Below, piece after piece: positions 939 to 48,326 of a DNA stretch of 64,000 nt. The DNA is from Halobacillus halophilus DSM 2266 (GTDB lineage Bacteria > Bacillota > Bacilli > Bacillales > Halobacillaceae), in NCBI RefSeq assembly GCF_000284515.1, contig NC_017668.1, positions 186,001 through 250,000 on the forward strand. Reading direction: 5' to 3'. The notes under the pieces are model-generated. The model searched no databases, was not told the origin of the DNA, and worked only from the letters and a program-made list of their open reading frames with translations. A program made the translations under genes and the position numbers. The stretch's first letter is position 1, and every line of letters starts with the position of its first letter.

Positions 939-1448
939 TTGAAGACTCAGTTTCGAGATAACTCGGGTCCGTTACGTTAATTGGTGGAGGATTGGTGGGG
1001 AAGTAACTCGCTTTCCTATGGGGGAACGGTGAGCTTCCTCGCTCGTTTCACTCCCTGCGGGATCTCACCTAGTCCCTTCTCCCACGGGAGTCTCATCATT
1101 TCCCCACCAACCCAGCCACGGAAGAATAGTGGACCCTTTTCAAGAGAGAATGCTCTCCTCCTAAATAGGTCCTAAATGCTTCTACGACAAACTTTCACAT
1201 CGTTCTAGCATGAAAATGAGTTCATCATCACATGCTTTTTTTCACATCAAGAAACGGTGTGTGAAGTGGTTTCGAGTTTCTAATTCGGCTAGGTCCGGAG
1301 GGGGACGATGAAGACTCCTGTGGGATGAAAATGACAGGGGAGACCCCGGAAGGCAAAGCCTGAGGAGGCTCCGCGCATTCCCACGGAAAGCGAATTGTCC
1401 CCCGGAGGACCTATCCTCTCTTTAAATAGCTCGAAACTGAGTCTTCAA
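939..1448. repeat. Inverted-repeat element, copy 1 (about 506 bp)
   Basis: The unit starts with GAAGACTCAGTTTCGAG at 941-957 and ends with its exact complement CTCGAAACTGAGTCTTC at 1430-1446, giving 17-bp terminal inverted repeats (19 if the flanking TT/AA is counted). Inside are two related modules, each bounded by its own inverted repeat: one of type GGTGGGGAA...TTCCCCACC (about 990-1110) and one of type GGTCCGGAGGGGGACGAT...GTCCCCCGGAGGACC (about 1292-1412). Both carry the core GAGACYCC...GAGGAGGCT...GAAAGCGA that recurs at 26.5-28.5 kb and 47.8-48.3 kb. No credible gene lies inside; the open frame at 981-1175 is repeat sequence. The gap between trxB and the next gene holds only this element and two terminators. 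Confidence 0.85.
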
Positions 1449-1502
1449 GTAATGAAAGCTTATCTGTAATAAGCAACTTGGATAATGATTAGAACAATCA
1501 AT

Positions 1503-1544
1503 AAAAGCCTCAACTTCCCAAATCAAAGGGAGGTTGAGGCTTTT
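1503..1544 (-). terminator. Terminator of the M24 peptidase-like gene
   Basis: A 17-bp stem with one mismatch (AAAAGCCTCAACTTCCC against GGGAGGTTGAGGCTTTT) with an 8-nt loop, just past the stop codon of the leftward gene at 1555. Confidence 0.8.
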
Positions 1545-1554
1545 AGGTGAAAAA

Positions 1555-2715
1555 TTATTTGAGTAGACGATGCTCAAAAGGAAAGTCAGAGAAATTTTCT
1601 ACGCCATCTTTCGTTACGAGAAGCTGTTCCTCTAATTTGACTCCTTCTTTGCCACCAGGTGAGCCAATATAACTTTCTACAGAAAGCACCATATTTTCTT
1701 GAATGACCCCATCATATCCTTTTTCTTCGAAGTCCTGCGGATAAACAATATAAGGGTATTCTCCGCTTAAGCCGGTACCATGAGCTACAGTAAAGTAACG
1801 ATTCGGGAAGAACTCATCCGGAATCTGCCAGCTTTTTTCAGCGTACTCCCGGAAGGTCATGCCTGGTTTTAATAAGTCAATATTATACTGGATCTGCTCA
1901 TAAGCGGTCTGATACAGGCGTTTCTGCTCGTTCGAAGGCTCCGAATCCCCGCACAAAAATGTTCGGCTGATATCGGTGAAAAAACCGAAAGGACCATTCA
2001 TATCCGTATCAAAAGCAACAAGTTCTCCTTCGTTAATCACCTTATCACTGCATTCCTGGAACCATGGATTTGTACGATTTCCAGAGTTTAGAAGCCGTGT
2101 TTCCACATAGTCTCCACCTTGAGCGATGTTTACCTGATGTAGATAAGACCAGAGTTCATTTTCTGTAATTCCTGGTTCCAGAGCCTGCTGCATGCGGATC
2201 ATACCTTCTTCTGCTGTACGAACAGAAATTTTCATCGCTTCGATTTCCTGCTTGTTTTTAATACTTCGGGCATGCTCAATTGGTTCCTGCCCATCGCGGA
2301 CGTCGATTCCTTGTTTGGCAAGCTCCACAGCCCCTACAGAAGGGATATAATCGACAGCAAGTTTCTTGTTAGAACCTGCATGCTGAGCCATCAAATCAGC
2401 AATTTCTTTTGCCCATTCTTTCGCATTATCATAAAGGTTCTCACCAGAGGCTACATAAGATAGAGTGATGGCTGGTCTAACTTCATCAATGGTTTCGAGT
2501 CCTTCTGACAGATGTTCACAATTAGGGAAATCGAACAGTGTGATAGGTCCCTCTGTTGGGATGAATACATAGCGGCCTGGGTTTCTCAGCATAAATACCT
2601 GCATGTTCCTGCTGCCTGTTGCATAACGCAAGTTCACCGGGTCAAAAATGACGATACCGCCGTATCCCAGCGCTTTTAGCTGGTCACGAACACGGCCCAG
2701 CCTGTATTGGCGCAT
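1555..2715 (-). CDS. M24 (pita-bread fold) family Xaa-Pro peptidase-like protein
   Basis: Probable dinuclear-metal hydrolase of the aminopeptidase P/prolidase superfamily, cytoplasmic. The five M24 metal ligands are present: Asp236 (VAFDTD), Asp248 (FFTDISRTF), His312 (AHGTG), Glu347 (SVESYIG) and Glu362 (KLEEQL). An extra Asp238 and all spacings match, from memory, those of the DMSP lyase DddP, but the residue matching its catalytic Asp377 is Gly318, so lyase activity is not supported. The first ATG (2715) has no ribosome site. A strong GAGGAGG site precedes an in-frame ATC at 2767-2769, which would add 18 residues that align with the N-terminus of relatives. A GntR regulator lies upstream on the same strand, with a palindrome between them. 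Substrate unknown. Confidence 0.85.
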   Translation of the reverse strand: MRQYRLGRVRDQLKALGYGGIVIFDPVNLRYATGSRNMQVFMLRNPGRYVFIPTEGPITLFDFPNCEHLSEGLETIDEVRPAITLSYVASGENLYDNAKEWAKEIADLMAQHAGSNKKLAVDYIPSVGAVELAKQGIDVRDGQEPIEHARSIKNKQEIEAMKISVRTAEEGMIRMQQALEPGITENELWSYLHQVNIAQGGDYVETRLLNSGNRTNPWFQECSDKVINEGELVAFDTDMNGPFGFFTDISRTFLCGDSEPSNEQKRLYQTAYEQIQYNIDLLKPGMTFREYAEKSWQIPDEFFPNRYFTVAHGTGLSGEYPYIVYPQDFEEKGYDGVIQENMVLSVESYIGSPGGKEGVKLEEQLLVTKDGVENFSDFPFEHRLLK

Positions 2716-2810
2716 ACGGACAAGATCGATCTGAGTTTTATCATGTCGGTTACTCGTCAGTTTAGAGATAGTAATTCCTCCTCATTCACGTTTGTGTATT
2801 AACTAACATA

Positions 2811-2836
2811 TTACAATAAGATATAACTTATTGCAA
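2811..2836. promoter_or_regulatory. Palindromic operator candidate for the GntR regulator
   Basis: The inverted repeat TTACAATAAG - 6 nt - CTTATTGCAA has 10-bp arms with one mismatch. It lies between the stop of the gntR-type gene (2853) and the M24 gene. It is AT-rich with no T run, so it is not a terminator. Control of the M24 gene by the neighbouring regulator is an inference. Confidence 0.5.
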
Positions 2837-2852
2837 TAGGTAGTGAGGAGGC

Positions 2853-3563
2853 TTAACTTCCAATTTCTACCTTATAATTAAAGCCGGAAGGAAGGTATTT
2901 CGTGCGGCTGTATTCGATAGGCTTCAACCCGCTGCCCGTTGTTGTCCGTTCAATATCAATGAGAGCTTCTCCGGGGCTGACCCCTAATACATCAGCTTCA
3001 AACGAGGTGGCATTAGATGCAGATACATCTTCTTGAATATTCGTATAATAAATTCCTTGTTCTCCTAACTTCGGGAAGATATCGAAGGACGTATCTATAT
3101 CATTTTCAATGGTTTTACCGATAGAATAGGGAAGAAACAATTGTTGAAATGCGATTGGTTTTCCATCAGCTAATCGGATTCTTTCAATCAGAAACATCTC
3201 TTCCTCTTCAGTGAGCTCCAGGGAATTCCGGGCGTGGAGCGCATGAGAAGCTTTACCGGAACGGATTACTTTTATAGAGAAGTGGGTCCCTTTTTCATGA
3301 TGGAGGACGCCGGGATTCACTCCTTCTTCCGGAGGAATCGTGCGTACTCTCGCGGGAGATCCTCTCCGGGTTTCCAACACCCCGTTCTGAACGAGTTCCC
3401 GTATCGATTGCCGAATCGTAGTTCGGCTTACGTTGTACATCTCAATCAATTGACTTTCAGAAGGGATCGCATCCCCTGGCTTCCATACTCCATCTTTCAC
3501 GTTGTGGATCATTTTATTTTTAATTTGTATATATAAAGGCAGTTTTCTTTGATTTTCAGCCAT
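2853..3563 (-). CDS. GntR family (HutC/UTRA) transcriptional regulator
   Basis: DNA-binding repressor-type protein of 236 residues. The N-terminal winged helix (about 8-75) includes PSESQLIEMYNVSRTTIRQSIRELVQNGVL, typical of GntR. The C-terminal part (about 90-233) is a UTRA ligand-binding domain, recognisable by the FLIERIRLADGKPIAFQQLFLP and IDIERTTTGSGLKPIEYSRTKYLPSGFNYKVEI-like segments. The start is set by a GAAGGAG site. It probably senses a small metabolite and controls the downstream M24 gene through the palindrome at 2811-2836. The ligand cannot be named from sequence. Confidence 0.9.
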   Translation of the reverse strand: MAENQRKLPLYIQIKNKMIHNVKDGVWKPGDAIPSESQLIEMYNVSRTTIRQSIRELVQNGVLETRRGSPARVRTIPPEEGVNPGVLHHEKGTHFSIKVIRSGKASHALHARNSLELTEEEEMFLIERIRLADGKPIAFQQLFLPYSIGKTIENDIDTSFDIFPKLGEQGIYYTNIQEDVSASNATSFEADVLGVSPGEALIDIERTTTGSGLKPIEYSRTKYLPSGFNYKVEIGS

Positions 3564-3660
3564 GTTAAAACTCCTTCAGAATGGATTGAATCGTTTCCTC
3601 TTGCTTTTATTTTAAAGGAGCTTGTGTATTCATGCCACCTGGCCTGCAATTCAGCATACG

Positions 3661-3690
3661 AAAAAGGACGCCCAGAGGACGTCCTTTTCA
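3661..3690 (-). terminator. Terminator of the yfhO operon
   Basis: Stem AAAAGGACG...CGTCCTTTT (extended by CC/GG with one bulged base), located 4-33 bases past the stop of the leftward yfhO gene and followed by a T run on that strand. Confidence 0.75.
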
Positions 3691-3693
3691 CCA

Positions 3694-6279
3694 TTATTTG
3701 TGTGTTTTTCTCCGGATCCATAAGAAGGAGAGGAGCACGGATAATAGGCATACGACAAGCGTAGCTTTGAAGTAAGGTGGATAATACGTAAAGGATACAT
3801 GGTTCTGTCCTTCTTCAAGTTCCACGCCAAGATAGGCATAGTTCGCACGTAAGACTTTCTTTGATTCTCCGTTAACCTCAACACGCCAGCCTTTTTCATA
3901 AGGGACAGGAATCGTAAGGAATTGATCCGTCTGATTGTTATTCAACTGAATATCGACCTGGTTTCCATTCACAGCTACGCTGGAAACCTCATTGGCTTCG
4001 TCATAGGCTTTCTCAAGCGTTTCATAGGTTGCGTAGTGCAATTCAAGTTCGGCCAGTTGGTAATCGCCTTTAGGTACACGTATGGAAATTTTTTCGTCAG
4101 CTGGAACGCGGATCGTCACATCGTTCATTCCAGTTCGGTAAAAGGACTCCCGCGATTTTCTCGATGTTCGGTAATCATTCACATACAACGGAAACCAGGG
4201 AGCAGATTTAATATTATTTTTTATATAAAAGGATACATATATATCTTCGGCATCTTCAGGAAGCGAGTCGAACTGCAAGTCTAAACCGCCCGTTTCCTCG
4301 GTCACTCTCAGCCGTTCATCCTGGTAGGTGCCTCCAACTGCTTTTACCTCAGCGCTGTCCATCAAATCAGGGAGCGGTTTAACCTGAGAGGTTTCGGAAT
4401 CCGGATTTTCTAAAATGATACCTTCAATCATGGCTTGCTCCCGTTTAATCATGGAAGCATCTGATAGGGAATCTACACTGTAAACCTTGCTTGTCGTACG
4501 TGCAAAGGGCAGCAGCTTTGTATTTCGATAGACTTGATAGTTCCTGCTTTCTAGATAAGGCTCAAATCCATAAGGCATATTCCTGTCAGAACCCTTTTTA
4601 GTCATAATGTATTTTCCGCTTAAGGAGCTGTACAAGTTGGCTCGGTCGCCAAATCCAGAATAACGGCTGATACTCTCTTGTTTCATATCGACTTCCATAT
4701 CCTCATAATACCAGTAAAGGATATGTTCATTTAATATACTCGAATAGACACTGGTCCCGCTGAAATCCTGAATAAGCGGGATATTATTACGGTCATCCAT
4801 CCCTTTCCATTCGAGTCGATAGAAGGAACTTGGATCCTTCTCCTGGACGCGATCCACCAGCTGTTGCTGTTCAGGAGAAGCATAGCCATCACTAAGCATG
4901 TATTCTTTAGTCGTTTCTTCGAGATTTCCTGCTTTATAAAGTTTGTCGTGCTGATAAACGTTCATCATCCCTGCGTTCAGCAGGACAATGATCACGCCTC
5001 CTGCTACCCAAGTTTTTTTATTCTGAATACTAAGCAACAGGAAAGCTGCTATGGAGATTCCGACCTGATAAAGCATGTATTGGTCAAATACGCTTTCGAT
5101 TTGATAATAAGGATCTCTCCAGGCAAAAAAGTAATAGCTAAGGCCTGTCAGAAAGATCGCCACGAAAACTTCCCATCTTTTTACCTGATTCATGAATTGC
5201 AGGCCCGCTGCGACTAGCCCGCCGGCTGCAAAAAAGCCGAGGTATTCAAAACGGTGTCTTGGGGCAGAGAAGCCGTTAAAGGCGCTTCCCATAAATGGAC
5301 TGAAATGAAAAAGGATAAATAACAGTGTCAGGACAGCAAACAACCGGAATATTTTATTTTTATAAAAAGAAAAAAGAAATAGAAAAAGCACTACAATGGT
5401 CGACAGCAAAAATGTGCGGCTGTCGAGCAGCATGTTATCGCTGAAGTCAAAAAGCGGGCGTTCTTGATTAAACGCCGGTCTGTAGTTATGAAAGTAAGCG
5501 TATAGTGTAGGTACAAAGGAAATAGAAGCGGCTCCCATTCCTAGTACTACTGAAATGACATAGAGCTTAAGCTGCTGGAGTTTCCCTGCTTCTTCTTTCT
5601 GCAGAGAAATAAGCCAGCGAACAAGAATATAGATCCCAACAAAAATGAAGCTTATATAAGCAAAGTAGAAATTGTTGAACATGGTTGCGGCAATGGCAAA
5701 AATAAACCAGCCCGGCTTTTGGTCACGGATGATTTTTTCAATCCCTAGAATTAAGAGAGGGACAAATACAAAGGCATCTGCGAAAAATTCCCAGTAAGAT
5801 ACATGACGGAAGTAAATAACCGAAGCACCGTAAAGAGTAGCCCCAATAAAAGATGGAATGGTACGGAGCGACATATATTTAAAAACATAGGTGGTAAGCA
5901 AAATGACAAGGGTCATGCGAATGATGCTGCTGAATATAATAGCTTGAGCCCAGAACAATGAGTCTGGCTTTCCAATTACATGCAGCAACTCCAATAAAAA
6001 GACCACTCCCACCGTCACAAGGAAGAAGAGGTTTGTTGAGAAGTAATAACCCAACTGACCGAAAAATCCTCCCCCAAAACCGAGATCGAGCGAATAAAAG
6101 AAATTCCCGCTCGTGTAGTTTTCGTATAAAAATTGTTTGAAGGGAATCATTTGGTTCAGCCCGTCATTTGGCCCTGCCATGAACGTTCCTTCCATCCATT
6201 GCCTTAAAAAGAATAGATGGGATAAGGTGGCGATAAGCAGACTTGAGAAGAATAGTATCGTGATTTTTTGTTTATTCAT
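3694..6279 (-). CDS. yfhO: YfhO family GT-C fold membrane glycosyltransferase
   Basis: Large polytopic membrane protein (861 residues) with about a dozen hydrophobic segments in the first 440 residues, then a long extracellular region, and a last membrane helix ending in RRKTHK. In Bacillus subtilis the CsbB-YfhO pair with a GtcA-type flippase adds sugar to lipoteichoic acid; YfhO is thought to transfer the sugar from lipid carrier to polymer on the outer face. Here it is the last gene of a three-gene cassette, 12 bases after the gtcA-like gene, so the same role is inferred. The ribosome site GGTGG precedes the ATG. No frameshift or truncation is visible. Confidence 0.9.
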   Translation of the reverse strand: MNKQKITILFFSSLLIATLSHLFFLRQWMEGTFMAGPNDGLNQMIPFKQFLYENYTSGNFFYSLDLGFGGGFFGQLGYYFSTNLFFLVTVGVVFLLELLHVIGKPDSLFWAQAIIFSSIIRMTLVILLTTYVFKYMSLRTIPSFIGATLYGASVIYFRHVSYWEFFADAFVFVPLLILGIEKIIRDQKPGWFIFAIAATMFNNFYFAYISFIFVGIYILVRWLISLQKEEAGKLQQLKLYVISVVLGMGAASISFVPTLYAYFHNYRPAFNQERPLFDFSDNMLLDSRTFLLSTIVVLFLFLFSFYKNKIFRLFAVLTLLFILFHFSPFMGSAFNGFSAPRHRFEYLGFFAAGGLVAAGLQFMNQVKRWEVFVAIFLTGLSYYFFAWRDPYYQIESVFDQYMLYQVGISIAAFLLLSIQNKKTWVAGGVIIVLLNAGMMNVYQHDKLYKAGNLEETTKEYMLSDGYASPEQQQLVDRVQEKDPSSFYRLEWKGMDDRNNIPLIQDFSGTSVYSSILNEHILYWYYEDMEVDMKQESISRYSGFGDRANLYSSLSGKYIMTKKGSDRNMPYGFEPYLESRNYQVYRNTKLLPFARTTSKVYSVDSLSDASMIKREQAMIEGIILENPDSETSQVKPLPDLMDSAEVKAVGGTYQDERLRVTEETGGLDLQFDSLPEDAEDIYVSFYIKNNIKSAPWFPLYVNDYRTSRKSRESFYRTGMNDVTIRVPADEKISIRVPKGDYQLAELELHYATYETLEKAYDEANEVSSVAVNGNQVDIQLNNNQTDQFLTIPVPYEKGWRVEVNGESKKVLRANYAYLGVELEEGQNHVSFTYYPPYFKATLVVCLLSVLLSFLWIRRKTHK

Positions 6280-6291
6280 AAGGGACCACCA

Positions 6292-6678
6292 TTATTGTTT
6301 TAATATTTTACTAGTGACGATAAAGGTTACCGGAACGGTGAAAAATACCGCGATCAGCGGCGCAATATTACTGTTTAGACTAAGCAAATCAACCAGAACA
6401 AAGACAAGAATGGATGAAACACCCACGTTGACCACTTGAGTTAATGGGAACTGCAGGAATTTTTTGAGTGTAGGTTTTACTTTATAAGTGAAATACGTAT
6501 TTAGAAAAAAAGAAATAACAAAGCTTATGAGAAAGCCAGTTATGTGAGCTGCCATATAATGAAAATTTAGTAAGTTATGGAGGAATAAGAACACAATGTA
6601 ATAATTAAGAGTGTTCATTCCCCCAACCAGTATAAAACGTGTAAGTTCATTGTTTAGTGAGTTGATCTTTAGTGTCAT
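6292..6678 (-). CDS. GtcA family flippase (polyprenyl-phosphate sugar translocase)
   Basis: Small membrane protein (128 residues) with four hydrophobic segments, typical of the GtcA/GtrA family. These proteins move undecaprenyl-phosphate-linked sugars across the membrane for wall or lipoteichoic acid decoration. Seen: ELTRFILVGGMNTLNYYIVF at the N-terminus and the ISFFLNTYFTYKV stretch common in the family. It overlaps the preceding glycosyltransferase gene by 32 bp and is followed at 12 bp by yfhO, so the three are co-transcribed. It fits as the middle step between cytoplasmic sugar-lipid synthesis and external transfer. Confidence 0.9.
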   Translation of the reverse strand: MTLKINSLNNELTRFILVGGMNTLNYYIVFLFLHNLLNFHYMAAHITGFLISFVISFFLNTYFTYKVKPTLKKFLQFPLTQVVNVGVSSILVFVLVDLLSLNSNIAPLIAVFFTVPVTFIVTSKILKQ

Positions 6679-7603
6679 GAATATTCGTATCCTTTACAAG
6701 ATAGTGTGGACGGCGTTTGACTTCATTATAGATACGGCCTATATATTCTCCGACGACCCCAAGACTGAGCAATTGAACGCCGCCAAGGAACAGGATCGCT
6801 GAGATGGTGCTGAAATAACCAGGTACCGCAATACCTGTTCTGATAATTTCTATAAAAATAAAGCCGATGTATCCAAGCGATAGTAATAAAGTGAGAAGAC
6901 CTGCATAAAAGCAAACCCTCAGGGGTTTGGTATTGAAAGAAACAAGGCCGTCAATTGCATAGTTTAACAGTTTAGAAAACGACCACTTTGAATCTCCTTC
7001 CTGTCGGCTCACATTTTCATAATTAATTACTTTTTCTTCATATCCGACCCAGGAAAACAGTCCTTTAGAGAAGCGGTTCCCTTCACTCAGTTTTAAAATG
7101 TCATTGACGACGGCTCTGCTCAACAGACGAAAATCGCCAATACCATTTTCTAATGTTACATCTACCAGCTGATTGATAACTTTGTAGAAGGTTGAGGACA
7201 GGGCTTTTCGAAGAGGAGACTCTCCCGTTCGAGTGCGACGTGCAATTACCTGATCATATCCTTCTTCATATCCTTCAACCATGGCCGGCAGGAGAGAACT
7301 CGGGTGCTGAAGGTCTGCATCCAAAATGATAACAGCTTCCCCTTTCGATTTTTCAAGCCCTGCGAGCATAGCTGCCTCTTTCCCGAAGTTACGAGTGAAG
7401 GATATATATTTTACTTGATCATGAGCAGAAGCAAGCATCTGAATCGACTCTAACGTATGATCCTGGCTGCCATCATCAATAAAGATGAGTTCATAATCGT
7501 AATGGAGCGGTTCCATTTGATTATGTATAGCCTCATAGATCATAGGAATATTTTTCTCTTCGTTAAAAGAAGGCAGAATTAACGATATTAATGATTTATT
7601 CAT
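6647..7603 (-). CDS. csbB: CsbB-like family 2 glycosyltransferase (sugar to undecaprenyl phosphate)
   Basis: Inverting GT-A enzyme of 318 residues. The catalytic domain starts at once (LISLILPSFNEEKNI), with FIDDGSQD at about 42-49 and the metal-binding DAD at 95-97 (ILDADLQHP). Two C-terminal membrane helices (about 230-290) place it on the inner face. The family (CsbB, GtrB, YkoT) loads a hexose or N-acetylhexosamine on undecaprenyl phosphate. First gene of the cassette; the ribosome site GAGGTGAAAG fits the ATG. A sigma-B-like sequence and a hairpin lie upstream. The exact sugar cannot be read from sequence; csbB is a family-level symbol. Confidence 0.88.
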   Translation of the reverse strand: MNKSLISLILPSFNEEKNIPMIYEAIHNQMEPLHYDYELIFIDDGSQDHTLESIQMLASAHDQVKYISFTRNFGKEAAMLAGLEKSKGEAVIILDADLQHPSSLLPAMVEGYEEGYDQVIARRTRTGESPLRKALSSTFYKVINQLVDVTLENGIGDFRLLSRAVVNDILKLSEGNRFSKGLFSWVGYEEKVINYENVSRQEGDSKWSFSKLLNYAIDGLVSFNTKPLRVCFYAGLLTLLLSLGYIGFIFIEIIRTGIAVPGYFSTISAILFLGGVQLLSLGVVGEYIGRIYNEVKRRPHYLVKDTNIHDTKDQLTKQ

Positions 7604-7621
7604 TCTTTCACCTCAAGATTA

Positions 7622-7649
7622 CATGGTCAAGGTTGGAAACCAGACCATG
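7622..7649 (-). promoter_or_regulatory. Leader hairpin or operator upstream of the csbB-like gene
   Basis: CATGGTC-aa-GGTT-gga-AACC-a-GACCATG forms an 11-bp nested hairpin a few bases before the ribosome site of the leftward gene. It could be an operator palindrome or an RNA leader structure. Nothing else identifies its role. Confidence 0.45.
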
Positions 7650-7682
7650 ATTATACTTCCTTTTCTTTTTTTCCTCTAACAT

Positions 7683-7708
7683 CTTCCCTTAAATTTGCTT
7701 TTTTAAGC
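7683..7708 (-). promoter_or_regulatory. Possible sigma-B promoter of the csbB-like operon
   Basis: On the minus strand GCTTAA, 14 bases, GGGAAG resembles the sigma-B consensus GTTTAA-N13-15-GGGTAT. It is about 80 bases upstream of the start codon. csbB of B. subtilis is a known sigma-B gene, which supports the reading, but the match is imperfect. Confidence 0.35.
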
Positions 7709-8801: not shown

Positions 8802-8859
8802 ATTGGAATGGCTTAGTTAAACTTCCATGTTGATGTTAAGGAAAAGCTCCCTTTTCTGT

Positions 8860-8902
8860 AAGACTCAGTTTCGAGATAAATGGGTCCGTTACGTTAGATG
8901 GA
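8860..8902. repeat. Solo end fragment of the inverted-repeat element
   Basis: AAGACTCAGTTTCGAG and the following 27 bases, through GGGTCCGTTACGTTA, match the left end of copy 1 (941-983) and the right end of copy 2 read in reverse. The rest of the element is missing; the NUDIX gene follows at once. Confidence 0.75.
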
Positions 8903-14147: not shown

Positions 14148-14170
14148 AAGCAAGATGAAGCAAAAAAATC

Positions 14171-14209
14171 CCACCTCAGGTCATCCATTTACTGGATGAC
14201 CTGAGGTGG
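14171..14209. terminator. Terminator with the shared CACCTCAGGTCATCCA stem, copy 1
   Basis: A perfect 17-bp stem with a 5-nt loop, followed by a T-rich run. The inner 16 bp of the stem are identical to those at 22243-22290 and 54667-54716. Located between cydC and the convergent gene at 14280, so it can serve both. Confidence 0.85.
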
Positions 14210-14279
14210 TTTAATTTTCCGGAAACCAGGGAGGAGACTTGGAGAGATTCCCTGACTGCCGCTTGGTTCACGATTAATA

Positions 14280-22083: not shown

Positions 22084-22242
22084 AGAGAAGTACCATTAAG
22101 TTGTTTGATGGACTGGATAGCTGTGCTATGCACTTCTTTTTCCAACTGAGTTAAATCAAGTGAATTTTATAAGCCATAGGACGATGGCGATCATTTCCCC
22201 CTTACTGAAAACCTCCGCAGCAAAAAAGCAAATAAGGAAAAT

Positions 22243-22290
22243 AAACCCACCTCAGGTCATCCATAATATGGATGACCTGAGGTGGGTTTA
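22243..22290. terminator. Terminator with the shared CACCTCAGGTCATCCA stem, copy 2
   Basis: Stem ACCCACCTCAGGTCATCCAT with a 3-nt loop and T-rich end. The inner 16 bp are identical to copies 1 and 3. It lies in the 430-base gap between cadA and the MurE-like gene; the rest of that gap shows no gene. Confidence 0.85.
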
Positions 22291-22515
22291 TTTGGGAATT
22301 ACCTGGGCGTTGTGACTGTTTTTCATTTATTAGAAGTCAAAAGCGTTTGGCTGCGTTAAAATAAGGGAAAAGGTTTAATTAATCTAGTATGGGTGCGGGG
22401 GTATTGAAGCCCGGAAGATGATGGGTTTATTTCCGTTAATCAAATAGAGAAAACATACATATTTTAACGCGAATCTGACGACGCTAACTATTATATTATG
22501 AGTGAGGAAACAACT

Positions 22516-26470: not shown

Positions 26471-26680
26471 TTATTATTTGGCTCTATTAAACGATATTGT
26501 TCATTCTTCATTACAGCCTTACCTTATTCCACAATAGGGCCGGATTGTGGAAGACTCAGTTTCGAGATATTTTTATGAGAAGAAAGGTCCTGCGGGGGAT
26601 GATTCGCTTTCCGCGGGCATGTGCTGAGCCTCCTCAGTCTTGAACTGCCCCCTTAAAATTGGACACATTCATTAAAATTA

Positions 26681-27550
26681 TCACGCCAATTCTTGAAAGC
26701 GGGCTCGATAGGAAATGGGGCTTATTCTGAGCTTCGATTTGATGCGTTTATGATTATAATAATGGATATATTCCTCTAATTCTTGTTTGAAATGGGCCAC
26801 ACTTTCAAATTCTCTTAAATAAAGGAATTCCGATTTCATGATACCGAAAAAGTTCTCCATAACGGCGTTATCATGACAATTCCCTTTTCTGGACATGCTT
26901 TGGGTAACTTGATGGTCTTTCAATTTCTTTCGATAGGGAGCCATTTGGTAATGCCATCCCTGGTCGGAGTGCATAACCAGTTCATCCGATGGATGAAGGC
27001 GTTCAAATGCTTGGTCTAACATGTTGTTCACCAAGGAATAGGTGGGTCTGGAACCAATTGTGTACGTGATGATTTCTCCATTGAATAGATCTAAGACAGG
27101 GGAAAGATAAAGCTTCTCGCCAAATAGCTTGAACTCCGTAATGTCTGTCACCCATTTCTGATTCGGCTGATCCGCCTTGAAATTCCGATTTAAGATGTTT
27201 GGAGCCGTTTGACCAACTTTCCCTTTATAAGAACGATATTTCTTCATTTTCACCGTAGACTGAAGCCCCAGTTCTTTCATAAGACGATAGACTTTTTTAT
27301 GGTTCACTTCATGACCTAGATTACGAAGCTCATTTTCAATGCGGCGATAGCCGTAGCGACCTTTATGTTCTTTAAAAATGGAGGTGATAAGCTCCTTTAA
27401 TGGTCGGTCCGTTTTTGGCTCGAGTTGCTTTTCTTTCCAATGGTAATAGGTACTTCTAGGGATATCAGCTATTTCCGTCAGCTGTTTAACTGGAAAATGA
27501 AACCTTAACTCATCGATTACTTGCGCTTGTTCTTCTTTCGAGATGCTTTC
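26681..27550 (-). CDS. IS150-type transposase OrfB (expressed by -1 frameshift)
   Basis: DDE transposase catalytic part, 289 codons in this frame. N-terminal part has the HTH_21-like segment GRYGYRRIENELRNLGHEVNHKKVYRLM; the rve core has Asp in WVTDITEF, Asp in MHSDQGWHYQ and Glu in AVMENFFGIMKSE. There is an ATG at 27307, but the frame is open back to 27550, where it joins orfA at the heptamer A-AAA-AAG (minus strand, 27556-27550). So the active product is an OrfAB fusion made by -1 frameshifting. Confidence 0.92.
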   Translation of the reverse strand, partial: ESISKEEQAQVIDELRFHFPVKQLTEIADIPRSTYYHWKEKQLEPKTDRPLKELITSIFKEHKGRYGYRRIENELRNLGHEVNHKKVYRLMKELGLQSTVKMKKYRSYKGKVGQTAPNILNRNFKADQPNQKWVTDITEFKLFGEKLYLSPVLDLFNGEIITYTIGSRPTYSLVNNMLDQAFERLHPSDELVMHSDQGWHYQMAPYRKKLKDHQVTQSMSRKGNCHDNAVMENFFGIMKSEFLYLREFESVAHFKQELEEYIHYYNHKRIKSKLRISPISYRARFQELA

Positions 27551-28023
27551 TTTTTTTGAGCTAAGGTCTCTAACTTTTTTAAGTATTCATTTTCCATCCG
27601 TAAGCGTTCATTCTCTTTCTTTAAGGCTTCATAAGAATCCATTGAATCTTCTTTCTTCTTATGAGACGTCATCTGTGTTGGCCCCTTCCTTGTAGATTCA
27701 AGGGCTTCTTTTCCGCCTTCCAGCCACTTCTTACGCCATCGGCGTACCATGGAGAAATCGGGGATGTGAAACATAGCGGAAGCTTCTCGAATCGAATATT
27801 CTTCTTCCTCTATACGTTGAATTACTTTCAGTTTAAAGGCAGCTGAATAGTTTGTATAGGGGAAGTCGAAGGCTTCACTACCATGATATTCGGATAATTT
27901 CACCCAATAACGGATGGAAGAACTATCCACTCCCAACTCTTTTTCTAAGTCACGGAAACTGACATTTTCCGTGAGATAACGTTGGACGATCAGGTACTTT
28001 TCTTGAGAAGTAAGTTTAGACAT
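27517..28023 (-). CDS. IS150-type transposase OrfA
   Basis: 168-residue DNA-binding subunit. Two helix-turn-helix units are seen: NVSFRDLEKELGVDSSSIRYWVK and YSIREASAMFHIPDFSMVRRWRKKW. A leucine-zipper coiled coil follows (EALKKENERLRMENEYLKKLETL). The slippery heptamer lies in the codons just after it (QKKK). It overlaps the OrfB frame by 34 bp. By itself OrfA usually represses transposition. Confidence 0.92.
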   Translation of the reverse strand: MSKLTSQEKYLIVQRYLTENVSFRDLEKELGVDSSSIRYWVKLSEYHGSEAFDFPYTNYSAAFKLKVIQRIEEEEYSIREASAMFHIPDFSMVRRWRKKWLEGGKEALESTRKGPTQMTSHKKKEDSMDSYEALKKENERLRMENEYLKKLETLAQKKKASRKKNKRK

Positions 28024-28665
28024 ATGTTGGGTCCCTCCTAAGTTTCATAAGGTGTCCAACATTTGGGGGTCATTACATCTTCGACTTCCGGGGTCTCACC
28101 GATCATGTTTATCCCGCAGGAGTCTTCATCATCCCCCTCCGGACCTGGCCAAATCAGAAGCTCGAAACCACTTTAACTCGTAAGGAATTAGACCAGGTGG
28201 TTCTGTACCTATTTTTAAGGGTATAACGATGCACAATAGCCTGTTATAAAATCGTTTAATGCAGATTAAGGAGAAGAACTTTCATCTTCTGGAAGGGTCC
28301 GTTCGCAACATTATAGCGGGGTTGGTGGGGAAATGGCGAGACTCCCATGGGAGAAGGGACTAGGTGAGATCCCGCAGGGAGTGAAACGAGCGAGGAAGCT
28401 TACCGTTCCCCCATAGGAAAGCGAGTTATTTCCCCACCTGCCCTTGTCCATCTAACGTAAAGGACCCATTTATCTCGAAACTGAGTCTTCAAGTAATGGG
28501 AGCTTATCTTCAGGTTGTCACGGGTGGCTTCGCAGGATAATCGTTTTAACATGTTAAATAAAGATTTTTTTTTGAAAGTGTTCAGAAACGATAAACTTGT
28601 TGATTTTGCTGAAGGATTTGGATAAACTATCAATAATTTATAACTAAAAAAAGAGGCGGGATTCG

Positions 28666-40436: not shown

Positions 40437-40493
40437 TGAAACAGACTTGAACCTTTTCTACTAATACTCTGGAATTGAGAGTGGTTCAGTATC

Positions 40494-42128: not shown

Positions 42129-44947
42129 TTTTTTAACCCCTTTTTAGAATGTTTTTTTGCAAATTCTTCAATCAGTTGACCGGGAGGAAGAGGACGACTG
42201 AAAAAGAACCCTTGGATTAAATAGCACCCACGGCCTTGAAGAAAATCAATCTGATCCTGCGTCTCTACTCCTTCAGCAATCACATCAAGTTTAAGACTGT
42301 TCGCTAAAGTGATAATGGTATCGGTGATCGCTGCATTATTTTTATTAGTTGTAATGTCATCAATAAAGGATTTATCGATTTTAAGGGTATCCACAGGAAA
42401 GTTCTTTAAGTACCCAAGCGATGAATATCCTGTGCCGAAATCATCAATTGAAATTTTAATCCCCAGGTTTTTCAGTTTTTTAATAGTAGTCGTGGTTTTA
42501 CAAGTATTGTGAATAATAAGATTTTCTGTCAACTCTAATTCCAAGTTCTCTGCTGGTAGATGAGTTTCATTAAGGACACGCATCACCACGTTAACTAAGT
42601 TGTTCTGGTTGAATTGCTGAGGCGACAAATTGACAGAAACCGTCCAATCCTTATATCCCTTCATGTACCATTGATTCATCTGTTTACAAGCCTCTTTTAA
42701 CACCCATTCTCCGAGTCTCGTGATTAACCCTGTTTCCTCAGCAAGAGGTATAAAGGTTTGAGGTGGAACGAGCCCTAAATCAGGATGATCCCAGCGAATT
42801 AGAGCTTCCATACCAATCATCTCATTGGTTTCCAGATTCATTTTAGGCTGATAATGTAACATAAACGAATTTTCTTCGTTTAAAGCTTTGTAGAGGTCGT
42901 TCTCTAGCTTTATTGTTTCTATAGAGCGATTATCGATGTCCGATGAATAAAATTGAAACTGGTTCCCTGAAAGCTCCTTGGCCTTGTACATAGCCAAATC
43001 GGCATGCTTAATAAGCTCTTCGGCACCTGATCCGTCAGATGGGTAAAGACTAATACCGATACTTGTTTTAATGGCTATTTCCTGGTCATTTATTGTGAAT
43101 TGCTGCTCGAAGACCTGGAGGATCTTGTTCGCATAATTGACCGCATCCTGCTCTTCCTTCACGCTCGGTAGAAGGATAATGAATTCATCGCCGCCTTGTC
43201 TCGAAACGGTGGCATCTTTAGGCATAGCAGACTCGAGACGCTGTGCTGCCTTTTGGAGTACCGTATCTCCAAATCCATGACCGAATGTATCGTTAATCTT
43301 CTTAAATCGATCTAAGTCCAAAAACAGGATGGCTAATGAACGGTTGTGGAGCTCGGCGTACGTTAAGGCCTGGTTGAGCCTGTCCTGGAATAAAACACGG
43401 TTGGGTATATTCGTCACTATATCGTAATAGGCATGGTATTTTATTTTTTCTTCCATTTGTTTTCTGGAGGTCACATCTTTAAATGTAATGACATAACCTA
43501 CAATCTGCTCAGCTTGTCTTTGGGGTGTAATCACATATTCGACCGGAAAGTAAGAACCATTTTTCTTTTGAAAGTAACTATCAGAATGACCATGATTGTT
43601 ATCGGCATCATCCGATTCCGCAAATTCACGGAAATGGTCACCCTGGTCAACCTGATAGAATATCTTTTTGTAAGAAAGTCCCAAGATTCCATCTTCGTTC
43701 GGATAACCAAGTAGTTCGATCGCGGAAGGGTTGGCGAAGGTGATTTTTCCGTCTAAGTTAAGACCAAAGATTCCTTCCCCGGCTGAATTTAGGATAAGTT
43801 CTTTCTCATTACTGATTTTTTGTAAATCTGTGATGGCTTCCTCAAGTTCCTTATTCTTTTGCGTTAGTTCAGAGGTGCGTTTATTAATGATCCATTCTTG
43901 TTTTTCCATATAAATTAAATTAAAAAGAACAGGCGCTGTGGCATCCACTATGGATTCAGCAAGCTGGCGAACATAACGGGGATATGTATAGCCTTTTTCT
44001 TCTAAATTTACAATTGCTATGGTCCCGAGTACTTCTCCTACAGCTACCAGGGGGATCATATATAATCCTTTAATACCAAATCGCGTGCATGCCTCATGGT
44101 TCGGTCTTGAATCTATGGTAACGTCAGGAATCATGATGGAATGTTTCTTTTCGACAACCTCGCGGAAAGCAGCATCATTTTTAAAATCAACCTTTAGTTG
44201 CTGGTGTGTGTTCTTCCAATCATCTTCTGTCCAGTCACTGTTTTTACTCAAGCTGACGGGCTTCATCTGCAACTCAGCTGCGGGATCAAGGAAATGAGCG
44301 CCAATGTTATTGTTTTTTAACACTTTACTTAAGTAATAGAAACATTTGTCAATGGCTTCTTGAAGAGAAGAACAGAGTGAGAGTTCGCGGGTTACATCCA
44401 GTAATAGCTGCTTTTCTTCAATTAAATCTTCTTTACGGGTCAAATTAGTAGCATTTCGAATAGCTACAGCAGCCATATTTACATAAGCTTTGATGGACTC
44501 TATTTCATCATCGGTTAAATCCATAGGAATTCCATAGTCGAATAAAAATACCAATCCATAAAGTTCATTTTCATAGAATATAGGGGCCACAAGTAAAGAA
44601 TTAATTTTGAACGCATTTACCGCCCTTGAATCAGGACGATTGTCTTTTGAGGTGTCTGGAATGTAAATGGTTTTCTTCGTTTCAATGACTTCTTTTGCAA
44701 GTTGATCGTATTCTGGATCTACAATATGCATATCAAGCGTCATTCCATTTAGAAGAGCAGGTTTCCCGACGTAGCCTCTATAGGTGCCATCTTCTTGTGG
44801 CAGGTAAATCCCAACAGAATCACAGCGTGTGATTTCTTCGGATATGGCTGTTACGACGTGCTCTAAAACATCGCGCAAATCAAGTTTGGTATTGATAAGC
44901 TTAGTAATTTGCGCTAGGCGAGAATATCTAGTTTGTTCTTCAGCCAT
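42125..44947 (-). CDS. GAF-GAF-PAS-GGDEF-EAL protein (c-di-GMP turnover)
   Basis: 940-residue cytoplasmic protein without membrane helices. Domains: GAF about 20-165, GAF about 185-345, coiled coil about 350-385, PAS about 385-500, GGDEF about 515-670 (FLDLDRFKKINDTFGH, RQGGDEF), EAL about 690-935 (GMEALIRW, ELTENLI, IDDFGTGYSSL, DTLKIDKSFI, AEGVET). The cyclase and phosphodiesterase motifs both look intact. The inhibitory RxxD site before GGDEF is lost (MPKDATVS). Two GAF domains and a PAS suggest several inputs. First gene of a two-gene operon with a ThDP enzyme. Confidence 0.93.
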   Translation of the reverse strand: MAEEQTRYSRLAQITKLINTKLDLRDVLEHVVTAISEEITRCDSVGIYLPQEDGTYRGYVGKPALLNGMTLDMHIVDPEYDQLAKEVIETKKTIYIPDTSKDNRPDSRAVNAFKINSLLVAPIFYENELYGLVFLFDYGIPMDLTDDEIESIKAYVNMAAVAIRNATNLTRKEDLIEEKQLLLDVTRELSLCSSLQEAIDKCFYYLSKVLKNNNIGAHFLDPAAELQMKPVSLSKNSDWTEDDWKNTHQQLKVDFKNDAAFREVVEKKHSIMIPDVTIDSRPNHEACTRFGIKGLYMIPLVAVGEVLGTIAIVNLEEKGYTYPRYVRQLAESIVDATAPVLFNLIYMEKQEWIINKRTSELTQKNKELEEAITDLQKISNEKELILNSAGEGIFGLNLDGKITFANPSAIELLGYPNEDGILGLSYKKIFYQVDQGDHFREFAESDDADNNHGHSDSYFQKKNGSYFPVEYVITPQRQAEQIVGYVITFKDVTSRKQMEEKIKYHAYYDIVTNIPNRVLFQDRLNQALTYAELHNRSLAILFLDLDRFKKINDTFGHGFGDTVLQKAAQRLESAMPKDATVSRQGGDEFIILLPSVKEEQDAVNYANKILQVFEQQFTINDQEIAIKTSIGISLYPSDGSGAEELIKHADLAMYKAKELSGNQFQFYSSDIDNRSIETIKLENDLYKALNEENSFMLHYQPKMNLETNEMIGMEALIRWDHPDLGLVPPQTFIPLAEETGLITRLGEWVLKEACKQMNQWYMKGYKDWTVSVNLSPQQFNQNNLVNVVMRVLNETHLPAENLELELTENLIIHNTCKTTTTIKKLKNLGIKISIDDFGTGYSSLGYLKNFPVDTLKIDKSFIDDITTNKNNAAITDTIITLANSLKLDVIAEGVETQDQIDFLQGRGCYLIQGFFFSRPLPPGQLIEEFAKKHSKKGLKK

Positions 44948-45189
44948 TTCATAACCTCCATACTCGTCATATTATGATAATGTTCGACTTCTGAAACGAA
45001 CCTCCTGCTTTAGGACCTCACTTAATGTGTTCTCTATCATAAAAAGGGTCAAAAGTCATATCTAAATTACTTATTTATACAGTTATAAAGTATCAGGATT
45101 TGATTAGGGTAAAAGGCCAAAAAGGTGTACGGATTGTAATGAACAAATCTGCTAAACTTGAGTATTTATTTAAGGAAAGTTAGCAATAG

Positions 45190-47812
45190 GTAAGCGTTTG
45201 AGATTATCTCTGGCTTTTCCCCTGCTCCACACCGAACGTGCTAGTTTCCCAGCATTCGGCGTTCCATCTAAAGGTATGTACTACATTATAAGTTCCTATG
45301 TTACTCTTCGAGACTGGATGCAACGATCCCTTCCACCCCACATACCTTTCGGTATTGATTGATTTTGTCTAAGATCAATCGATTCTGTGGTAATCGTTCA
45401 AGATAAACCTTTATCTTCTCTATATCTTTCATATGGATAAGTCGATGGATATCCTTATGAAGAATACGGAGATTCTGAAATTGATCGGACCCTCCTTGGT
45501 TCTTTGGCACGTAATGGTGACAGTGAACGTCTTGTGCATGGAGGTATTTGCCTGTAATTTCGCATCTTCCCATCTTCATACTATATCGACTAATACGATT
45601 ATCCAGATATTCAATACTTCGTTTCGGTAGAGAAGACTTCATTAAATGTCCAATTTCTTTCTGGATATCCGGGCGGAGACTTTTGTGTATCTGTTCCCTA
45701 CCCTTCTTTGTGTAAAGCGAAAGCTTTGAACTGAAGCTCATCGCATGGAATGTTTTCACATTGCCAATGGGGAATAGATACGTATCATTGATATTGATCG
45801 TTTTCGTTCCTAAGCTAAAGGTCTTCCTATAGAAAGGAGGTGGCTTAAAAGGATGTTCTAGCTTTCCAACCGGTCGAAGACGGTTCACTAGAAATGGTTT
45901 TAGATCGTAAGCAAGACGTGAAAACACGAGACTTACATGAGTCGCTCGCTTAAAGTATTGGTGAAGTCCTAGAACAAAGCTATTATAACGATTAATATTC
46001 TCAGTAGAAGGCGAAGCTTTCATTCTTCGAATGAGTTTCTTCGCTTCCTGTTTGATTTTCTCGCTTTTTGAAGTAACGACCCCAGTATGGGCCACTCGTT
46101 TCTTACCCTTTTTATTCGCACGAATGGTGAACCCTAAGAACTCCGATTCTCGTTTTCTTAAGTTTACAATTTGAGATTTCTCTGGTGAGATATCCAGTTT
46201 CAAACGCTCTTTGAGGTACAGACGTACCGCATGGTACCACCTTTGCGCTGTCTTTCCATCCCGACATAGAATTTTAAAATCATCCGCATACCGGACCAGA
46301 TATCCTTGTTTCAAATTCGTTTGTTTTCTCGCTCGCCTTCTGGCATCATCTGAACTGTAGGATTTCGTCAGGGGAAATACTTCCCACTGGTCGGCAACCC
46401 ATTGGTCTAGATCATTTAAGACAACATTCGAAAGAAGGGGAGATAAAATTCCACCTTGTGGCGAACCCTTATCGGGCACACCTTCACCATCAATTTCTGA
46501 TGTAATCATTTTAGAAATACATGCCAGTACCTTTCGGTCTTGGATGCCAATATTCCAGAGTTGCTTCTTTAATAGACGATGATTTACGTTATCAAAGAAG
46601 CTTTTAATATCTACATCAACCACGTAATGAAGTTGACTATGGTTAATCAGAAACTGTATTCTTGCCATAGCATGATGAGCAGACCGGAGAGGTCTGAAAC
46701 CGTAGCTATGTTTGAAGAATTGAGATTCTACAATCGGTTCGAGAACTTGTTTGAAGCATTGTTGGATCACTCGATCCAAGATACATGGAATCCCAAGGGG
46801 TCTCCATTTTCCGTTCTCTTTTTCAATCCATTCTCTTCGAACTTTCTTCGGGTGATAGTTTTGAAGTTTACTTCGGACTTCATTTACCAGATCATTTTCG
46901 GAGAGCTCTTTCATGTCATCGATGGTTTTCCCATCGGTTCCTGGTGTTCTAGAACCTTTATTGGTTTTAATCATGCGAAAAGCGAGCAGGATGTTTTCTC
47001 TCGATATGATGGTTTCATATAAATGAGAGAACGTATTTCCCTGACTCGCTTTTTCATGAAGATCCGTAAAGGTCTCCGTCATATTATAATAATCCCAGTT
47101 TCGCAGCGTTGACACTGTGGCATCCCTCCTTTGGAGTGATGTTCCCACGTTCCTACCCGATCGGTGCCATTCACGTTAGGAAAATAATCGTTTCATACTC
47201 TAGACTTGGGGCTATTCCTCCACTTCCATTACAGAAGTTTCACCAGTCATTCCCCTACCTTCACAAGGATAAATGCTTTTCAGCATAACTTTATAGCAAC
47301 CGTTTCGGGTGACAGCCCTTGATTCAACGTCCCTTGCTTTCCAAGTACCATACAACGTAGCTATCCATACTAAACGTAGATGCTTCCTTTAAGCCTGTGA
47401 GCTCGATACCGCCATCGTTCGGTATAGCGTCTTTCAGAGGGGGCAGTTTTACTCCACACCACTCACGTCATCGTAAGATGACCACGTAAGTTTCCTTACG
47501 TTCGAAACTTTAGACCCTTACCTTCGGAAGTTCGTCAGTTCCTATCTCAAAGAACGATTCTCATCCTATCTAGTTTTTCAGCCGTGGGGCATATCCGTCA
47601 GCATACCTAATGGCTTCAGCCTTCGTTCTGCCCAATCTACCTGTGCTTCACACCCTAAGACCTGTCCGTCTTAACGCATGCAGAAGTGTTGACGGGATGG
47701 TTTCAGGAAACATGGATCCTTCATTCCCATCCTCCGTTGTACAGTTAAAATTTAATCAAATAAACTTCCTGCCTTTCACGCTGAAAAGCGCTTATAGCAG
47801 AACTTGTCGCGC
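45190..47812 (-). mobile_element. Group II intron (ORF-encoding)
   Basis: On the minus strand, an RNA part of about 0.7 kb lies before the reverse transcriptase gene. At the 3' end, 45224-45265 fits domain V (ACGCCGAA...TTCGGTGT stem around GCTGGGAAACTAGC), followed by a domain VI-like stem with bulged A (45192-45220). The 5' end is placed near 47812 (GCGCG resembling GUGYG). Boundaries are approximate. The 5' end is only 14 bases from inverted-repeat copy 3. The group II class was not assigned. The gap 44948-45190 shows no gene. Confidence 0.8.
45301..47115 (-). CDS. ltrA: Group II intron reverse transcriptase/maturase with HNH domain
   Basis: 604-residue multifunctional protein. Reverse transcriptase blocks run from about 50 to 330 (GRPLGIPCILDRVIQQ-like block, SYGFRPLRSAHHA, VDVDIKSFFDNV, GSPQGGILSPLLSN, YLVRYADDF with the catalytic YADD). 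A maturase X domain follows, then a C-terminal HNH endonuclease (CEITGKYLHAQDVHCHHYVPKNQGGSDQFQNLRILHKDIHRLIH). GTG 47115 is chosen since AAAGGAGGG lies 9 bases upstream; an ATG at 47148 has none. It splices its own intron and moves it by target-primed reverse transcription. No disruption is visible. Confidence 0.92.
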   Translation of the reverse strand: MSTLRNWDYYNMTETFTDLHEKASQGNTFSHLYETIISRENILLAFRMIKTNKGSRTPGTDGKTIDDMKELSENDLVNEVRSKLQNYHPKKVRREWIEKENGKWRPLGIPCILDRVIQQCFKQVLEPIVESQFFKHSYGFRPLRSAHHAMARIQFLINHSQLHYVVDVDIKSFFDNVNHRLLKKQLWNIGIQDRKVLACISKMITSEIDGEGVPDKGSPQGGILSPLLSNVVLNDLDQWVADQWEVFPLTKSYSSDDARRRARKQTNLKQGYLVRYADDFKILCRDGKTAQRWYHAVRLYLKERLKLDISPEKSQIVNLRKRESEFLGFTIRANKKGKKRVAHTGVVTSKSEKIKQEAKKLIRRMKASPSTENINRYNSFVLGLHQYFKRATHVSLVFSRLAYDLKPFLVNRLRPVGKLEHPFKPPPFYRKTFSLGTKTININDTYLFPIGNVKTFHAMSFSSKLSLYTKKGREQIHKSLRPDIQKEIGHLMKSSLPKRSIEYLDNRISRYSMKMGRCEITGKYLHAQDVHCHHYVPKNQGGSDQFQNLRILHKDIHRLIHMKDIEKIKVYLERLPQNRLILDKINQYRKVCGVEGIVASSLEE

Positions 47813-47825
47813 GCTCCCGTTTCTT

Positions 47826-48326
47826 GAAGACTTGATTTCGAGACTTTTGTGAGAATTTGGTCCTGCGGGGGACGATTTCGCTTTTCGCGGGCATGTGCTG
47901 AGCTTCCTCGGGCTTAACAGCCCTGTGGGATCTCACCGATCATGTTCATCCCGCAGAAGTCTTCATCGTCCCCCTCCGGACCTTGCGATATATGGAGCTC
48001 GAAATCTCTGCTCGAAACGCGCCGTTTTATGATGGAGATAAACTTCTAACAATAAGCGTGTACGTGTAGATCATTCCCGCTATAGAAGCATTTAAGGCGG
48101 ATCAAGAACCCCTCTATCGTCTATAGAAGGGTCCGTTCACTCTTCCATCATAGGGTGGCGGAGGAAACGACGAGACTCCCGCGGGAGAAGGAGCTAGGCG
48201 AGACCCCACAGGGAGTGAAGCGACCGAGGAGGCTTGCCAGTTCCCCGCAGGAAAGCGAGTTGTTTCCGCAGCCATCCCTTCTCTATATTAAGTAACGGAC
48301 GCAAAATATCTCGAAGCTGAGTCTTC
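47826..48326. repeat. Inverted-repeat element, copy 3 (501 bp)
   Basis: Starts with GAAGACTTGATTTCGAGA (three mismatches to the consensus end) and ends ATCTCGAAGCTGAGTCTTC. Same order as copy 2: the GGTCCTGCGGGGGACGAT...ATCGTCCCCCTCCGGACC module at about 47860-47981, then the GAGACTCCCGCGGGAG...GAAAGCGAGTTGTTTCCG module at about 48150-48275. No gene inside. The right flank CACAATCCGGCCCTATTGTG equals the left flank of copy 2. Confidence 0.85.

Follow-up and report, generated by a model that had tools for sequence, protein, structure and literature searches.

Dispersed 500-bp units of Halobacillus halophilus, probably MITE-like and related to a cassette-carrying transposon of an integron-like system

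A 64,000-nt stretch of the 4.17-Mb Halobacillus halophilus DSM 2266 genome (contig NC_017668.1, positions 186,001 to 250,000; hereafter the window) contains three copies of a unit of about 500 bp, bounded by an inverted repeat of 17 bp (the 17-mer, GAAGACTCAGTTTCGAG, and its complement). Comparisons within this genome and with related ones indicate that these units are probably relatives, similar to miniature inverted-repeat transposable elements (MITEs), of a cassette-carrying transposon that belongs to an integron-like system of Bacillota, the activity of which we infer. The element is real, abundant and restricted to its family, and its inner arms, outer ends and target duplications tie it to the cassette system.

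In the window, the 17-mer and its complement start at 941/1430, 26550/28474 and 47826/48310, giving spans between the arms of 506, 1941 and 501 bp for copies 1 to 3. An insertion sequence (IS) of 1,437 bp, delimited by eye, splits copy 2, which without it measures 504 bp including 3 bp of IS target duplication, and the arms of copy 3 deviate from the 17-mer by 3 and 1 mismatches. These are the places and essentially the lengths (506, 501 plus the IS, and 501 bp) that an earlier sequence-only reading had given. Genome-wide, the 17-mer yields 215 + 222 matches at up to 3 mismatches, compared with 6 + 5 for a reversed control. In a repeat-neutral sample of 464 kb (the window and 20 evenly spaced 20-kb stretches), 12 of the 20 inward-facing pairs less than 1.2 kb apart lie at a spacing of 496-517 bp (arms at up to 4 mismatches). 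A larger set of 621,581 bp, much of it chosen because the repeat is present, holds 35 of 61 pairs at this spacing and a further 9 at 553-574 bp. Each unit contains two modules, M1 and M2, in constant order, and in the 464-kb sample neither occurs alone: 38 of 50 module intervals lie inside a unit and the other 12 within about 500 bp of a 17-mer. The composite unit postulated by the earlier reading, as opposed to modules of no fixed length that occur mostly singly, is thus borne out by both the spacing peak and the company the modules keep. Unit 3319199, at a stretch edge and without a module match, was excluded from the module and flank analyses, including the X/Y classification described below. 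Longer units have insertions within M1 or M2, several at recurring points; in H. halophilus units of 553-960 bp (e.g., C1:927172, 828303 and 3994535) the extra stretches are nested small repeats.

The units are short and rich in hairpins, with no open reading frame (ORF) recognised in them, and Rfam covariance models gave no match at E≤1 in window positions 860-1500 and none at the gathering threshold inside the three cores. Among 61 units, 22 lie between convergent genes, 24 in tandem and 2 in divergent settings, with 13 unclear and 2 overlapping an ORF; by simple ORF calls, the 211 background intergenic gaps above 60 bp are 28 convergent, 147 tandem and 36 divergent. In the tandem setting, 19 of the 24 units are closer to the 3' end of the upstream gene than to the start of the next. 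Their positions relative to called ORFs show that the units are mostly placed directly behind gene 3' ends.

Although proposed as terminal repeats, the 17-mers do not mark the outer limits of the element, because sequence outside them is conserved as well, in two kinds that we term X and Y. Exactly one X and one Y flank accompany 54 of 60 units, with no XX or YY combination and 6 units unclassified. An outer box, GGCTCTGTTAAA, is common to the consensus sequences of the two kinds (56 X and 58 Y flanks), and the whole element runs from GGCTCTGTTAAA to TTTAACAGAGCC. Both boxes are present at up to 3 mismatches in 21 of the 60 units. In these the distance from the 17-mer outwards to the box is 62-67 bp on the X side (19 of 21) and 48-51 bp on the Y side (21 of 21), which makes the 17-mers internal arms. 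Thirteen of these 21 units fall into the 500-bp class, and 12 of them have a full length of 613-631 bp, the other one of 604 bp. Target duplications of 8 bp (at least 7 of 8 matches directly beside the boxes) flank 8 of the 21 units, compared with a mean of 0.55 and a maximum of 4 in 300 shuffles; the scan covered 126 length/offset settings, and the 8-bp setting is among the ten best, the others overlapping it. Six perfect duplications were seen by eye (tacaggaa, tacgaata, atcttttt, taaataat, tatttttt and tactaaaa). At 793995, H. halophilus has tacgaata on both sides of a unit that is missing from the relative G001, where the site is near-empty with an indel in the flank; at a second locus, 261861, G001 also lacks the unit and the edges are unclear. 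With outer inverted ends, duplications and a locus empty in a close relative, the prediction of a non-autonomous mobile unit is supported, and together these features show the 500-bp units to be the inner part of what look like MITE-like elements of about 620 bp. Each flank reads, together with its 17-mer as the inner arm, as two arms around a G-rich spacer, GCAAT-AGGGCCGG-ATTGTGGAAGACTCAG for X and CTGAGTCTTCAAGTAA-TGGGAGC-TTTACTTTAAA for Y.

An integron-like cassette system also contains the 17-mer. Pairs of 17-mers that face outwards pointed to a gene for a 280-aa tyrosine recombinase with a 54-bp palindromic site behind it. Five of six genomes with a close homologue (H. halophilus, H. aidingensis, Halobacillus sp. 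Nhm2S1, Halobacillus sp. A5 and Sediminibacillus terrae) carry a 17-mer site 81-104 bp behind the stop codon; the close homologue of Pontibacillus litoralis has no site behind the gene. The search that matched S. terrae and P. litoralis also returned one distant gut bacterium (32% identity), and a search of viral contigs gave one distant match (23% identity). Of 11 recombinase loci examined, 5 gave a usable ORF, the site being present at 4 of them and absent from 1; loci L102-L104 and L106-L108 were left out. The adjacent site folds with a z of -8.3 and may, from its position, be regarded as attI-like. In profile searches the protein scores 218 bits with XerA, just under the cut-off of 220, 205 bits with both XerC and XerD, and 95.6 bits with the IntI model TIGR02249 (cut-off 265), by which it is XerA-like and not IntI. 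A structure model had a mean predicted local distance difference test score (pLDDT) of 49 and was not used. At two loci of relatives (L110, 8112-9856; L109, 8126-9868), divergent ORFs of 390-392 and 180-187 aa stand beside the cassette recombinase; in L110 the longer one appears integrase-like by eye, and the pair adjoins a chaperonin-like gene there, suggesting a genomic island.

Behind the H. halophilus recombinase gene follow small ORFs separated by a site with the consensus TATCTCGAATTCAAGTCTTnnAGTAAnGGGGGCGnTTGTTnAATA. Array 1, which includes the recombinase gene, has 7 junctions, and in array 2 (1.50-1.54 Mb) an attI-like first site is followed by 40; the junction pattern gives 0 matches on a reversed control. 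No recombinase match at E≤0.01 was found in the array 2 region (1440-1600 kb). All 49 sites point in one direction (+ strand), and the 4 pattern matches that the arrays show on the minus strand correspond to the right halves of sites that are palindromic. As in the units, the sites combine arm and spacer; the same kind of arm and G-rich spacer is present at the array junctions and behind the XerA-like recombinase gene. Of 47 cassettes, 40 contain a + strand ORF of at least 50 aa, 4 only a - strand ORF and 3 none, and in 31 of those 40 the stop lies within 72 bp of the site. Half of the 12 rows in the table of duplicated segments are intron copies and were set aside. In five of the six remaining segments both copies have their 3' end no more than 18 bp from the spacer, and one of these five is common to arrays 1 and 2. 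Three segments also start at most 29 bp from the spacer in either copy, and the sixth segment ends away from known sites. One duplicate compared by eye places the crossover at AAN|GGGGGC. The duplicated cassettes are consistent with integrase-catalysed movement. Among ten cassette proteins profiled, a GNAT acetyltransferase and a DUF4367 protein (- strand) exceeded their cut-offs and the rest gave none. Cassettes of these arrays compared with five loci of relatives had only the intron ORF in common.

The outer boundaries of array 2 link it to the units. Its boundaries are GACTCTGTTAAAG at 1496748 and GCTAACACAGCC, the last letter of which is at 1539297, and ttctggga flanks it left and right; it would thus be a 42.55-kb insertion whose target duplication has the length seen in the units. 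With 4 and 5 mismatches of 24 its end boxes are weak, and such boxes are not rare (19 at up to 7 mismatches in 160 kb, units included), so that the exact duplication, in this one case, is the main evidence for an insertion. Array 1 has a right end, AAACTTTAACAGAGCC, at 677664 with 1 mismatch. In one array 2 junction site (L073, 19269-19400) we observed an outer-end-like sequence (AAAAATCAACACTAAACTTTGACAGAGG), possibly a unit-derived junction.

Could these arrays be ordinary integrons, or clusters of attC sites lacking integron-integrases (CALINs), with IntI as the recombinase? They resemble such systems in having a recombinase gene beside the first site followed by small-gene cassettes, series of sites that share a strand, duplicated cassettes whose ends fall near the junction, and group II introns in junction sites. 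This identity is nevertheless highly improbable given the IntI score cited above and a best model of XerA, and no genome among the 22 of the genus exceeds the IntI (TIGR02249) cut-off. Moreover, the attC boxes are at random level in the 49 sites (GTTRRRY in 5, random 5.4; RYYYAAC in 1, random 1.5). The recombinase gene is co-oriented with its array, the junction consists mainly of one two-arm site with a GGGGGC spacer, and hundreds of related sites lie outside arrays in the MITE-like units, all unlike integrons. Four junction sites have their spacer interrupted by a group II intron of the same kind as the one in the Y site of window copy 3, a site uninterrupted in G001. The intron runs in the cassette direction; in the excerpted text of PMC7923331, known IIC-attC introns run opposite to the cassettes. 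A second alternative regards the arrays as gene clusters in which a terminator-like repeat was spread by transposition or conversion, with no site-specific recombination. Many sites do contain a terminator-like hairpin, only 8 of 47 sites have a conserved right half, 21 of the 73 array ORFs (52 + and 21 -) are on the other strand, and one of the six duplicated segments ignores the sites. Five junction sites, picked for a visible right half, gave bottom-strand z values of -3.2, -3.0, -3.0, -1.7 and -0.7, and three top strands fold at least as well (-3.9, -3.5 and -4.4). We consider this explanation unlikely, as the 3' ends of the other five duplicated segments fall beside the spacer, every site points the same way and a recombinase is linked to them.

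To follow the units between species we compared H. halophilus with G001 and G019, both about 92% identical to it, at 15 units, some of them partial (a 16th row, 673047, is not a unit); 3 have no syntenic pair and 2 are absent from G001. At the 10 loci callable in H. halophilus and in G001 and/or G019, the X/Y frame is the same wherever called, the calls for G019 at 186941 and for both relatives at 233826 being direct readings of the locus comparison. The orientation of the core within the frame, which is divided 35:19 among the H. halophilus units, differs at 8 of these 10 loci and in 13 of 20 pairwise comparisons. Such differences would be expected of an inverton, in which the core flips in place between the inverted 17-mers. 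This explanation is very doubtful and we dropped it, because polarity is constant among near-identical cores and the nearest relative of a core is not its ortholog. All 12 core pairs at least 92% identical (8 clusters, all from H. halophilus and not independent) have the same polarity, and in no case checked was the orthologous core among the four best matches, which were cores at other loci. The pool comprised 83 H. halophilus cores and 18 from the relatives, so that matches within H. halophilus are favoured. The best match reaches 100% over 501 bp (701713 and 729859) between unrelated flanks, and for near-identical cores generally the flank identity at -60 to -26 is 0.41/0.37, compared with 0.39/0.37 for random pairs. 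These comparisons show that the frames stay in place between species while the cores are swapped between loci with their polarity kept, in keeping with the recombining unit that the earlier reading had offered as the other possibility.

In order to rationalise these observations, we propose that a transposase would move both unit and array by their outer ends and that the recombinase would move cassettes at the G-rich spacer. Core swapping would be mostly ectopic gene conversion, to which the recombinase possibly contributes, and new cassettes may obtain their junction sites from units that lie behind genes. A competing account takes the units for ordinary MITEs that carry an old integron-like site, with cores exchanged by RecA-type gene conversion alone and the recombinase uninvolved; it overlaps with our proposal on the exchange step and is not exclusive of it, and we give it only slightly less than an even chance. 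Several observations weigh against our proposal, and some of them speak directly for this account. Gene conversion is suggested by identical tracts of module length in cores that otherwise differ, which also show that pieces smaller than a core are exchanged (a strong identical segment occurs in 69 of 1081 core pairs, from an alignment of 47 of the 73 oriented cores, those of 480-600 bp). The core/frame boundary, by label statistics, falls inside the 17-22-bp arm and not in the G-rich spacer. Core-less frames, which X-by-Y excision would leave, were not seen: a 17-mer accompanies the outer X motif in 29 of 31 cases and the Y motif in 38 of 38, in DNA largely fetched by the 17-mer, and the 464-kb sample has 21 outer boxes near a 17-mer, 6 weak ones far from any and no facing pair about 115 bp apart. 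At E≤1e-40 the recombinase has homologues in 7 of the 44 family genomes; among the 19 rich in units only 5 have it and 14 lack it, and it is therefore not needed there at present for copy number or core exchange. Nor is it currently needed for core replacement in G001 and G019, which lack it at the same threshold and have replaced their cores nonetheless. A second recombinase in G002 (54% identical) has no 17-mer nearby. Ungapped flank identity at -60 to -26 in four orthologous pairs is 0.76 for X and only 0.44 for Y, one of the Y flanks being split by an intron, so that vertical descent of the frame rests on shared position and flank kind more than on letters. For array 1, which holds the recombinase, a right outer end was found and a left one was not, and M1/M2 cores are absent from the arrays. 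Finally, ISL3, IS1595 and IS6 profile searches found no transposase for the outer ends.

On the other side, the MITE-only account leaves unexplained why array 2 has similar outer ends with an 8-bp duplication, why the 17-mer and G-rich spacer stand behind the recombinase gene in five of six genomes, and why polarity is kept in all 12 near-identical pairs although the two orientation classes occur 35:19. Gene conversion explains the mosaics, and the kept polarity leaves room for a site-specific step. Homogenisation of the two arms within a unit was not detected (1.67 mismatches, 1.77 when shuffled; 307 of 2000 shuffles as low), and integrase-driven excision of the core was rejected, as no core-less frame was found.

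At up to 2 mismatches, the 17-mer has 44-359 matches in each of the 19 unit-rich family genomes and 0-31 in the remaining 25; 57 other genomes of the order have 0-2 each, the same as the control, and plasmid and phage collections gave no match. Five genomes (G004, G005, G011, G024 and G039) have few 17-mer matches (5-18) and 8-19 junction-pattern matches, all on one strand; cassette arrays may exist there without dispersed units. As to the mobilising enzyme, members of the ISL3, IS6 and IS1595 families have characteristic end sequences and make 8-bp duplications. The units are alike in their GGCTCT-type ends and 8-bp duplications, and an ISL3 element of H. halophilus itself ends in GGCTCTAGAATATTTGTTGGGG. 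Only 3 of the 22 genomes of the genus have an ISL3 transposase (none in G001, G007, G010, G015 and G019), and derivation from this family was rejected, as the enzyme is not general among unit-carrying genomes. No genome exceeded the cut-off for IS6, and IS1595 was not found in H. halophilus; the listed ORFs of the 42.55-kb array included no transposase by eye, with the ten cassette proteins noted above profiled.

Further comparison with known systems places the units close to MITEs in being short, hairpin-rich, without a recognised ORF, bounded by inverted ends, flanked by target duplications and high in copy number. Unlike MITEs, they carry recombinase-type sites and a core exchanged between frames, and no autonomous parent was found (ISL3, IS1595 and IS6 searched), yet the cassette array has the same kind of ends. 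The pdif (XerC/D) modules of Acinetobacter, as far as summary descriptions go, are likewise gene modules bounded by two-arm sites of tyrosine-recombinase type. Site orientation alternates in pdif modules, unlike the Halobacillus sites, which all point one way with a recombinase gene beside the first. The bcr repeats of the Bacillus cereus group are dispersed repeats of Bacillaceae, and their likeness to the units is by description only.

The features of the window are collected in the table below. For copy 1, the X/Y class of the X-side flank was not called automatically. The core of copy 2 is opposite in orientation to that of both G001 and G019 at the same locus. Its IS, which by its ends we take to be IS3-like, has 1,437-1,438-bp matches of at least 99% in three other split units of the genome. 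The locus of the fourth-unit remnant holds a fuller unit in G019 and none in G001.

Features of the units in the window (positions within the 64,000-nt stretch)
Feature	Position	Strand
Copy 1 X frame, made up of a decayed outer end (3 mismatches to GGCTCTGTTAAA, 877-888) and the X site into the core	877..940	+
Copy 1 core between 17-mer arms, 506 bp	941..1446	+
Copy 1 module M1, GC-rich palindromic hairpin	961..1126	+
Copy 1 module M2, hairpin with GAGACCCC...GAGGAGGCT...GAAAGCGA	1265..1427	+
Copy 1 Y frame, decayed outer end	1447..1490	+
Fourth-unit remnant: Y frame with outer end GGCTTAGTTAAA, a single 17-mer (8859-8875) and the first part of M1	8810..8902	+
Copy 2 outer end GGCTCTATTAAA (26480-26491) and X frame	26480..26549	+
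Copy 2 core, M2 left and M1 right, split by IS	26550..28490	-
IS inside copy 2, 1,437 bp, ends and 3-bp flank TCT by eye	26641..28077	-
Copy 2 Y frame (AAGTAATGGGAGC...), outer end not recognisable	28491..28515	+
Copy 3 outer Y-site part beyond intron (TTATTTAAGGAAAG); joined without intron in G001	45160..45179	-
Group II intron (reverse transcriptase ORF 45301-47148) in copy 3 Y site, ends approximate	45180..47814	-
Copy 3 inner Y-site part, separated by intron from remaining Y	47815..47825	-
Copy 3 core, 501 bp, with M2 to the left of M1; orientation reversed in G001	47826..48326	-
Copy 3 X frame and outer end TTTAACAGAACC (48380-48391)	48327..48391	-

Elsewhere in the window, a decayed X-end-like sequence (GGATTGTGGAAGAAGCCTTTTCGAG) at 63384-63424 is probably an old unit remnant, and three copies of a hairpin around ACCTCAGGTCATCCA...TGGATGACCTGAGGT (14158-14217, 22234-22293 and 54659-54718) are perhaps a repeated terminator element. 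A T-box leader (58221-58449) lies upstream of a long + strand ORF (58547-61645).

To our knowledge, integrons are rarely reported in Bacillota. Judged by titles and abstract openings, the open-access matches listed held no work on Halobacillus integrons or MITEs, and those listed for Bacillaceae, Firmicutes or Bacillota (in part the best 20 of 190) described no such cassette system. A cassette system with another recombinase and other sites could escape tools built on IntI and attC. As a tentative and bolder possibility, we suggest an integron-like system of independent origin in Halobacillus and its relatives, with an XerA-type recombinase, two-arm sites with a G-rich spacer and arrays that a transposon can carry, whose MITE-like derivatives (up to hundreds per genome, directly behind genes) might scatter sites that turn neighbouring genes into cassettes; on this reading the units would be a source of both recombination sites and cassettes. 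If units seed junction sites behind genes, the origin of cassettes and of their sites becomes testable in a laboratory organism that is harmless.

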